This document shows, piece by piece, positions 11,614 to 47,073 of a stretch of 64,000 nt of DNA. Location of the stretch: assembly GCF_024362485.1 (NCBI RefSeq), contig NZ_CP101456.1, positions 3,100,001-3,164,000 on the forward strand, written 5' to 3'. The translations under genes were made by a program, and so were the position numbers. The first letter of the stretch is position 1. The number at the start of each line of letters is the position of its first letter. The stretch comes from Natronobeatus ordinarius (GTDB lineage: Archaea; Halobacteriota; Halobacteria; Halobacteriales; Natrialbaceae). Under the pieces are notes generated by a model, which saw nothing but the letters and a program-made list of their open reading frames with translations, made no database searches and was not told where the DNA came from.

Positions 11614-11634
11614 TGCGCTGGCTGGGATTTGAAC
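11614..11634 (-). repeat. detached copy of the tRNA-Gly 3' end
   Basis: 21 bp identical to 11774-11794, the 3' end of the tRNA-Gly gene, in the same orientation and 160 bp away. A shorter 11-bp match lies at 11583-11593, preceded by the same GGGAAAA context. A direct copy of a tRNA 3' end is what site-specific integration at a tRNA gene leaves behind. Confidence 0.9.
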
Positions 11635-11641
11635 TACGCCC

Positions 11642-11704
11642 AGACGGTCCTGCTCACCTCGCTTCGCTCGGTTGCGCGGGCTGCGACTGGTCTAGTTCAA
11701 ATCC
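11642..11704 (-). repeat. core of a tRNA-nested module (Gly type)
   Basis: Read on the minus strand: GGATTTGAAC (11704-11695, inverted copy of the tRNA-Gly T-arm), seven bases, GTCGCAGC (11687-11680), CGAGCGAAGCGAGG (11670-11657), then GACCGTCT (11649-11642) just before the detached tRNA end. The order and core motifs match the modules behind tRNA-Leu at 46706-46757. Confidence 0.7.
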
Positions 11705-11711
11705 AGATTCG

Positions 11712-11774
11712 ATTTCTCCGAACACGAATACTCGCGCTGCTTCGCAGCGCTCGTGGGGTTGTGTTCGGAGAAAT
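11712..11774. repeat. 14-bp perfect inverted repeat abutting tRNA-Gly
   Basis: ATTTCTCCGAACAC (11712-11725) pairs with GTGTTCGGAGAAAT (11761-11774), with an inner hairpin GCGCTGC-TTC-GCAGCGC (11734-11750). The outer arm includes the tRNA discriminator base, so the structure would start exactly at the mature tRNA 3' end. It could act in 3' processing or termination, or be one end of the nested module. Confidence 0.85.
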
Positions 11775-13825: not shown

Positions 13826-14722
13826 ATGACCGTCAGCGTACTCGTGCCGTCGTCGCTCACCCGTGAAGCCGAGGACAAACGCGAGGCAACTCGCAAACTC
13901 GGCTACGTCGCCCGCGCGGCGACGATCTTCCGGGTGGACCGCCTGCTCGTCTATCCCGATCGGGAGGGCGAACGCGGGCGATTCGACGGCGGGTTCGTAA
14001 GCACCGTGTTGCGGTACGCCGCAACGCCACCGTACCTTCGAAAGGAGGCGTGGGGCGTGCGGGACGAACTGGAGTACGCGGGCATCTTGCCGCCGCTCCG
14101 CGCACCGTCACAGACCGGCTCCGAATCGAACGGTTCGGGGTCGACAAGACAAGGGATCGTGACCGAGGTCGGACCTGAAGGGCGCGTCCGGGTCAATTGC
14201 GGACTGCAACACCCGATCTCCCTCCCCGTTCCGTCGAAGATGACGGTCGAGGAGGGAGAACGCGTGACCGTCAGGATCTCTTCGCGACGACCGGTCCGGG
14301 CGAAGCTCGTCGACGAACCCCTGCCGGGGTTCGCCGTCGAGCAGACGGACCTTTCGGCAGCACTCGGCCGTGAGGACGCCGGCGTTCGAATCGCAGCCTC
14401 CCGATTCGGTGCAGAACTCACCGGTGGGGGGCTCGAGACGCTGGCCGGACGCGTCGAGCGGGACGGGATGACCGTCGCGTTCGGCGCGCCCGAGAGAGGG
14501 TTGCCGGACATCCTCGGCATCGACGCGTCGTCGGTCGACGCGGCGTGGGACGACCACGCCGCCGTCGGCGACGCCGAGACCGAGGACGACGACGCACACG
14601 TCGAACCCGCCGATCCGGGGTTCGACCTCTGGCTCAATACGGTTCCGAACCAGGGCAGCAAGGTGGTCAGAACGGAAGAAGCGATGTTCGCCACCCTCGC
14701 TCCCCTCTCACTGAGAGCGTGA
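13826..14722 (+). CDS. SPOUT-family RNA methyltransferase (archaeal C9orf114/SPOUT1-like)
   Basis: 298 residues. Starts TVSVLVPSSLT and contains KLGYVARAATIFRVDRLLVYPD. An inserted OB-like segment follows (GIVTEVGPEGRVRVNCGLQ). The knotted C-terminal region has MTVAFGAPERGL and ends LNTVPNQGSKVVRTEEAMFATLAPL, the SAM-binding knot of this family. Homologues are RNA (rRNA) methyltransferases. It heads the L3 operon with only 4 nt before rpl3, which supports a role in ribosome assembly. The start at 13826 gives the family's N-terminus. Confidence 0.85.
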   Translation: MTVSVLVPSSLTREAEDKREATRKLGYVARAATIFRVDRLLVYPDREGERGRFDGGFVSTVLRYAATPPYLRKEAWGVRDELEYAGILPPLRAPSQTGSESNGSGSTRQGIVTEVGPEGRVRVNCGLQHPISLPVPSKMTVEEGERVTVRISSRRPVRAKLVDEPLPGFAVEQTDLSAALGREDAGVRIAASRFGAELTGGGLETLAGRVERDGMTVAFGAPERGLPDILGIDASSVDAAWDDHAAVGDAETEDDDAHVEPADPGFDLWLNTVPNQGSKVVRTEEAMFATLAPLSLRA

Positions 14723-46581: not shown

Positions 46582-46663
46582 GCGCGGGTAGCCAAGTGGT
46601 AACGGCGCAGCGCTTAGGACGCTGTCTCGTAGGAGTCCGCAGGTTCGAATCCTGTCCCGCGCA
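46582..46663 (+). tRNA. tRNA-Leu (anticodon TAG)
   Basis: 82 nt, class II. Acceptor GCGCGGG/CCCGCGC, D-arm with AAGTGGTAACGG, anticodon stem CAGCG/CGCTG around loop CTTAGGA (anticodon TAG), long variable arm TCTCGTAGGAGTCCG, T-arm CAGG-TTCGAAT-CCTG and discriminator A. CCA is not encoded. Confidence 0.97.
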
Positions 46664-46757
46664 TGCTTCTCCGAGCAACTTCGCGAGGAGAAGCATCACG
46701 ACGAAGGATTCGAACCCTGCAAGTCACAGCGCTCGAGTGAAACGAGAGCGACCGTCT
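46663..46757 (+). repeat. tRNA-nested module 1 (Leu type)
   Basis: A hairpin starts with the discriminator base: ATGCTTCTCC ... GGAGAAGCAT (46663-46696). Then come GGATTCGAACC (46706-46716, inverted copy of the Leu T-arm), six bases, GTCACAGC (46723-46730), a small stem (CTCGAGTGAAACGAGAG) and GACCGTCT (46750-46757). A copy of the tRNA 3' end follows. Confidence 0.75.
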
Positions 46758-46763
46758 TGCTAC

Positions 46764-46785
46764 GGTTCGAATCCTGTCCCGCGCA
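46764..46785 (+). repeat. second copy of the tRNA-Leu 3' end
   Basis: 22 bp identical to 46642-46663, the T-arm strand, acceptor strand and discriminator of tRNA-Leu. It lies 122 bp downstream in direct orientation. The rest of the tRNA is absent. Confidence 0.95.
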
Positions 46786-46895
46786 TACCGTCTCGAACGA
46801 ACGTGAGAGACGTGTCTGCGCGACGGCGGGATTCGAATCAGGGAGGTCGCAGCCCGGGAAGCGACCGAAGGGAGCGACCCGGAACGTCCGACCGT
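46786..46895 (+). repeat. tRNA-nested module 2 (Leu type, diverged)
   Basis: Same order as module 1 with a different sequence: hairpin CGTCTC...GAGACG (46789-46812), GGATTCGAATC (46829-46839), six bases, GTCGCAGC (46846-46853), a structured stretch, GACCGT (46890-46895). The third tRNA end then follows directly. Confidence 0.7.
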
Positions 46896-46994
46896 GGTTC
46901 GAATCCTGTCCCGCGCATGCTTCTCCGAGCACCTTCGCAAGGAGAAGCATCACGACGAGTGCTTCAAATTCTGCAAGTCACAGCGCTCGAGTGT
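46896..46994 (+). repeat. third tRNA-Leu 3' end with near-copy of module 1
   Basis: 46896-46917 equals the tRNA 3' end. The next about 77 bp repeat 46664-46740 at a constant offset of 254 bp with few changes, including the hairpin TGCTTCTCC...GGAGAAGCA and GCAAGTCACAGCGCTCGAG. Here the inverted T-arm has decayed to GCTTCAAATTC and no fourth tRNA end follows, so this looks like the oldest or terminal copy. Confidence 0.85.
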
Positions 46995-47073
46995 GTCGAG
47001 CCGCTCGCTCGCCGACGGAGCGACGGACGATCGACGTGGGCCACTCGAGGACTCGGACTCGCGCACTCGGAGG

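Follow-up and report, generated by a model that had tools for sequence, protein, structure and literature searches.

Gene-less modules nested behind the tRNA genes of haloarchaea: a family of possible recombination cassettes

The window is a 64-kb stretch (G000:C1:3100001-3164000) of the 4.2-Mb genome of the haloarchaeon Natronobeatus ordinarius. A tRNA-Leu and a tRNA-Gly gene within it are each followed on their own strand by small modules, with the following parts (window coordinates; R1 is the covariance model described below).

46582-46663 (+), parent tRNA-Leu, anticodon TAG
46664-46785 (+), tRNA-Leu module 1, 122 nt, R1 match of 91.3 bits
46664-46695 (+), hairpin 1 of module 1, with an apical GAGC..GCGA tandem-GA motif
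46706-46716 (+), inverted T-arm of module 1, GGATTCGAACC
46723-46755 (+), type A core of module 1: GTCACAGC (46723-46730), stem, GACCGT (46750-46755)
46764-46785 (+), tRNA copy of module 1, the exact last 22 nt of tRNA-Leu from T-loop to discriminator
46786-46917 (+), tRNA-Leu module 2, 132 nt, starting with its hairpin 1
46829-46839 (+), inverted T-arm of module 2
46846-46895 (+), core of module 2
46896-46917 (+), tRNA copy of module 2
46918-47000 (+), tRNA-Leu module 3, truncated remnant, R1 match of 31.4 bits
11774-11844 (-), parent tRNA-Gly, anticodon GCC
11614-11773 (-), tRNA-Gly module, 160 nt
11773-11713 (-), hairpin 1 of the tRNA-Gly module
11704-11695 (-), inverted T-arm of the tRNA-Gly module
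11687-11644 (-), core of the tRNA-Gly module
11634-11614 (-), tRNA copy of the tRNA-Gly module

At both loci, the complete modules contain a core with GTCRCAGC and GACCGT, and they repeat the final 21-22 nt of their tRNA exactly. All parts that a preliminary description of this DNA had reported behind the two tRNAs lie where it placed them. Hairpin 1, which it had begun at the discriminator base, starts with the first base after it. Both modules that it reported behind tRNA-Leu are complete, and they are followed from 46918 by a truncated third that it lacked, with a module-1-type hairpin, a decayed inverted T-arm and GTCACAGC, but without the final tRNA copy. The Rfam matches in the window are tRNAs and an L4-Archaeoglobi ribosomal leader (14175-14274, + strand, 78 bits) alone, and the modules match no Rfam model.

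The pattern GTCRCAGC-N8-38-GACCGT occurs 20 times genome-wide, compared with 5 times for the reversed control, and 12 of the 20 occurrences lie inside tRNA-associated modules with the tRNA 3' end present. The core pattern is not due to chance. Counting copies of a tRNA's last 18 nt (0-3 mismatches) in genome stretches retrieved downstream of it, we found that about 30 of the 46 tRNA genes carry 1-3 modules. In nearly all of these the plan is the same, and the first tRNA-end copy ends approximately 100-200 nt downstream of the tRNA. Further modules stand behind the intron-containing tRNA-Trp and behind tRNA-Pro(CGG), and some stand behind proviruses that entered between tRNA and module. The absence of modules behind other tRNAs had been named beforehand as an argument against a family; most tRNAs of this genome do carry them. 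Module length ranges from 81 to 212 bp and is typically about 120 bp. The two motifs first taken as the kept core are present at both loci of the window, but they define one among several core types: type A (GTCRCAGC..GACCGT), type A' (GTCGCGCGCAGCG..GAGCACGTC), type B (GAGGTTCTG..CAGGTTCTC), a minimal type and others.

Model R1, built from 20 modules of the source genome, detects 48-55 modules there and also matches 36 of the 41 related genomes. A class-wide search, in which 13 candidates were scored per genome and modules per genome are therefore "at least" values, was positive for 285 of 292 haloarchaeal genomes, representing 74 of 77 genera. In a sample of the phylum, 40 of 43 haloarchaea were positive, compared with none of approximately 204 non-haloarchaeal genomes. 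Strong matches in other genomes have a same-strand tRNA upstream in 55 of 58 cases, involving many isoacceptors, and most of them stand 0-3 nt from that tRNA or are separated from it by at least one unit. The preliminary description knew of no family with such a plan, and we found none in the literature searched; this absence is weak evidence, since the search covered few subscription papers.

An alignment of the 20 modules folds into two hairpins: hairpin 1, and a second one in which the inverted T-arm is followed by a spacer, a 4-bp stem and a variable end. In this alignment, 93.3% of the stem cells are paired, compared with 77.0% in shuffles and 25-46% in slid controls, and both partners have changed in 86 stem cells, against 27.8 in shuffles. 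The apex of hairpin 1 reads GARY..GYGA in 125 of 130 modules, and its R and Y covary (60 G-C, 57 A-T, 8 others). The core tip is often GARC-GNA-GYGA (71 cases; 3 in the window, both strands), and the apical C-GNA-G triloops comprise GAA (46), GGA (17), GCA (4) and GTA (4). The spacer of the second hairpin is unpaired and asymmetric, often with GA opposite GCG.

The 22-nt block of identity with the tRNA starts at G53/T54, at the T-loop; the T stem-loop is one described class of tRNA att sites (PMC8371274). Among 37 distinct modules of the source genome, 1.43 of the 11 inverted T-arm positions on average mismatch the module's own tRNA, whereas permuted tRNAs give 2.41, and none of 20,000 permutations matched as well. 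Position 57 pairs in 36 of the 37. In this genome, the inverted T-arm thus follows its parent tRNA, as had been proposed. Together with the tRNA census and the tRNA-linked matches elsewhere, this tracking strongly supports the earlier view of one family whose copies are adapted to their host tRNA. Across genomes, nearest neighbours share the tRNA for 51% of first hairpins and 39% of cores (15% by chance in both cases), and near-identical cores occur at different tRNAs too.

Arrays consist of 1-4 units, all in the same orientation, and their make-up varies between orthologous tRNA-Leu loci. At the tRNA-Leu(TAG) locus, 28 of 30 species have 1-4 units and two have none. For a species pair whose Leu-locus flanks are 93% identical, 37 orthologous tRNAs divide into 11 occupied in both species, 9 occupied in one and 17 occupied in neither. 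Sister species also differ by precisely one unit at tRNA-Gly and at one tRNA-Met locus. At tRNA-Leu(TAA), an identical hairpin 1 is joined to another core in a sister-species pair. The other species retains the second core further downstream, which makes a deletion from one inverted T-arm repeat to another the best explanation of this core swap. Modules reshuffle first hairpins and cores, and homologous recombination between repeats very likely adds to the turnover of units.

A 20.3-kb provirus with PHROG matches occupies tRNA-Arg(TCT) (G000:C1:295958-316298), and two modules stand behind it. Its integrase (330 aa, Pfam Phage_int_SAM and Phage_integrase) starts approximately 165 nt before attR. 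In this provirus and three related elements, attR consists of a type-B-like core followed by a copy of the tRNA from the T-loop onwards, as a 22-nt repeat, and type-B modules share with these attR arms boxes that closely resemble ACTGAGGTTCT and AGGTTCTCAGGYGTGGTTC. Such a match to integrase-bearing elements is seen for type B only; other SNJ2-type elements have unlike ends, and most of them have a 13-15 nt acceptor-end core directly before an existing module or with none. Two integrase-bearing elements of about 18 kb with 13-15 nt cores (G000:C1:1436479-1455190 and 618160-636022) stand between tRNA-Arg(CCG) or tRNA-Met and the respective modules. We rejected the idea that all modules are attP sites of SNJ2-type elements, because most of these elements have the short core and an attR without module structure and inserted before existing modules. 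A kind-1/SNJ2-type integrase is present in nearly all haloarchaea, including most module-poor genomes, and its co-occurrence with modules is therefore uninformative. Pattern scans of IMG/VR revealed no module-bearing viruses, only unrelated matches and one provirus junction at a tRNA-Gly with a module after it. In blastn searches, modules had no match among phages and one among plasmids, on a megaplasmid.

The explanation that we tentatively prefer, and to which we give slightly less than an even chance, is that the modules are a pan-haloarchaeal kind of non-coding recombination cassette, similar to attC, that is nested in tRNA genes and mobilised in trans. A cassette would extend from the T-loop (TTCRANTC) through the tRNA acceptor end, hairpin 1 and the second hairpin to the next T-loop. 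The second hairpin, with its inverted T-arm, unpaired asymmetric spacer, short covarying stem and variable end, would fold as single-stranded DNA and act as an integron attC does, the T-arm being the outer recombinase box and the T-arm of the tRNA taking the role of attI. A tyrosine recombinase supplied in trans, of the T-loop class as in the type-B-core proviruses, would recombine at the T-loop. Each event would insert or excise a single cassette while leaving the tRNA with an intact 3' end, and because the tRNA would always regain that end, a cassette must match its tRNA. Such units may still be mobile; they may function like integron cassettes and might be satellites of integrative elements. 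What is new is the family and its plan, while the proposed mechanism resembles known ones.

attC sites are imperfect palindromes with a paired R box, an unpaired asymmetric central spacer, a short paired L box and a variable end (PMC2727003). The second hairpin follows this plan: it is an imperfect palindrome at the end of the unit, with a paired outer box, an asymmetric unpaired spacer, a short stem and a variable end, and its structure is conserved more than its sequence. As in integron arrays and CALINs (attI-attC, IntI), units of one orientation stand behind a fixed anchor site. The integron R box has the consensus GTTRRRY at the crossover, whereas the outer box of the modules is GTTCRAAT throughout, with C at the fourth position. 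Their anchor is a tRNA T-arm, their host is archaeal and they carry a second hairpin but no gene; we know of no IntI for archaeal modules. Lacking the R box, they are not integron cassettes by defining features. A broader reading, which we consider rather unlikely, is that tRNA genes form the basis of an integron-like system, in which their T-arm would capture gene-less cassettes that, behind most tRNAs, a T-loop-class tyrosine recombinase would stack and exchange. That folded single-strand DNA hairpins recombine in such a system, each cassette being pre-adapted to the tRNA that needs repair, we rate with the same reserve.

Like tRNA-integrating elements, the modules are bounded on either side by direct repeats of the tRNA 3' end. 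Those elements encode tyrosine integrases, whereas the modules, at 81-212 bp, contain no integrase gene; they are not autonomous integrative elements and at best non-autonomous ones. SNJ2-type elements and their relatives (PMC8371274) also duplicate the tRNA 3' end, and the type-B core matches attR of one such provirus family, but the modules are gene-less, are present in about 50 copies in the source genome on most tRNAs and have an inverted T-arm inside. The PATEs, SMRs and MITEs of Haloquadratum are small, non-coding, palindrome-bearing haloarchaeal repeats that, as is proposed here for the modules, are presumably moved in trans; PATEs are relatives of IS605-type transposons, without target duplication or a link to tRNAs (PMC3119063). 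The modules differ in that their ends are direct repeats of the tRNA 3' end, in place of terminal inverted repeats or the near-terminal palindromes of IS605-type transposons, and that strong matches almost always lie at tRNAs.

Several observations speak against cassettes. The link to a recombinase, judged from sequence, would cover type B but not types A, A' or the minimal one, and most SNJ2-type elements, with their 13-15 nt cores, insert between tRNA and module. A DNA duplex of about 120 bp does not readily form a circle, and homologous recombination between 22-nt repeats would give unit differences without an enzyme. Occupied and empty sites were seen without an outgroup-polarised clean insertion.

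The strongest rival, which we regard as doubtful, is that the pre-tRNA extends into the module as its 3' trailer, from which RNase Z would free hairpin 1 and the second, T-arm-mimicking hairpin as stable small RNAs or regulators of tRNA maturation. Like trailer small RNAs, the modules lie on the tRNA strand and begin immediately past the discriminator base. Their + strand folds better than the complement in 33 of 40 and 32 of 37 modules, by 4-5 kcal/mol, a bias that is not present in background windows; one strand therefore matters, which suits RNA as well as single-stranded DNA. The covarying apex of hairpin 1 would suit a structured RNA, and there are almost no T-runs within modules that could stop transcription. 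The pairing statistics are divided. At inner pairs 1 and 2, G.T exceeds A.C, which leans towards RNA and weighs against cassettes. Over all stems, G.U (48) is not favoured over A.C (39), so that there is no RNA-type wobble tolerance, and GNA loops are known from exceptionally stable DNA mini-hairpins (PMC4686876); these two features lean towards single-stranded DNA. Against trailers, the presence and number of modules vary freely between sister species, many tRNAs have none, and Rfam has no match. We know of no requirement for a complete acceptor end and T-arm copy on the 3' side of a trailer, and of no trailer family with inverted and direct T-arms or arrays. The preliminary description had left trailers open beside tiny integrative elements that a tyrosine recombinase would mobilise in trans. 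Such trans-mobilised elements fit better, given the 22-nt block from the T-loop, the near-identity of type-B cores to attR, the precise unit changes and the DNA-like loop and mismatch statistics, with the enzyme being a supposition; the earlier interpretation as a whole is partly supported.

It is improbable that the modules are debris, namely decaying att sites left by ordinary viruses and plasmids that integrate at tRNAs, with homologous recombination at the tRNA-end repeats as the only means of multiplication. The resemblance of provirus attR to type-B cores, the position of proviruses before modules at tRNA loci, which are integration hot spots, and the observed loss of units via direct repeats would agree with this. 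Decay would not, however, keep three helices by compensatory change across all tRNAs or make the inverted T-arm track its tRNA; moreover, the plan of first hairpins and cores is conserved over 74 genera, and the attR ends of most integrated elements are unlike modules. A DNA element that serves the host, such as a decoy or guard at a viral integration site or a replication or transcription boundary behind tRNA genes, would suit the near-universal presence in haloarchaea and the strict position between tRNA and flank, but is very improbable, given that modules do not keep viruses and plasmids from integrating between them and the tRNA, and that occupancy is patchy within one genome.

A non-coding family stands behind about two-thirds of the tRNA genes of this genome, is nearly class-wide and is apparently undescribed in the literature searched. 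As cassettes, the modules would point to archaeal single-strand site-specific recombination outside integrons, would help to explain the fluidity of haloarchaeal tRNA loci as integration sites and could serve as tRNA-specific docking sites for haloarchaeal genetic tools. As trailers, they would add a large and new class to the structured RNAs of archaea, produced with many tRNAs. Under either reading, the modules matter for annotating tRNAs, calling provirus boundaries and transcriptomics in haloarchaea.

Three further loci of the genome depart from simple arrays. Behind tRNA-Leu(GAG) (G000:C1:1040038-1040122, - strand) lies a different tandem repeat that does not have the module plan: its 198-nt unit ends in a tRNA copy, has no inverted T-arm, and its start recurs after the unit. 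At G000:C1:1476144-1476679 (- strand), the whole tRNA-Asp gene is tandemly duplicated together with its modules. An orphan chimeric module without a tRNA (G000:C1:3924686-3924791) has the end of tRNA-Arg(CCT) on its left and that of tRNA-Val(TAC), with one mismatch, on its right.
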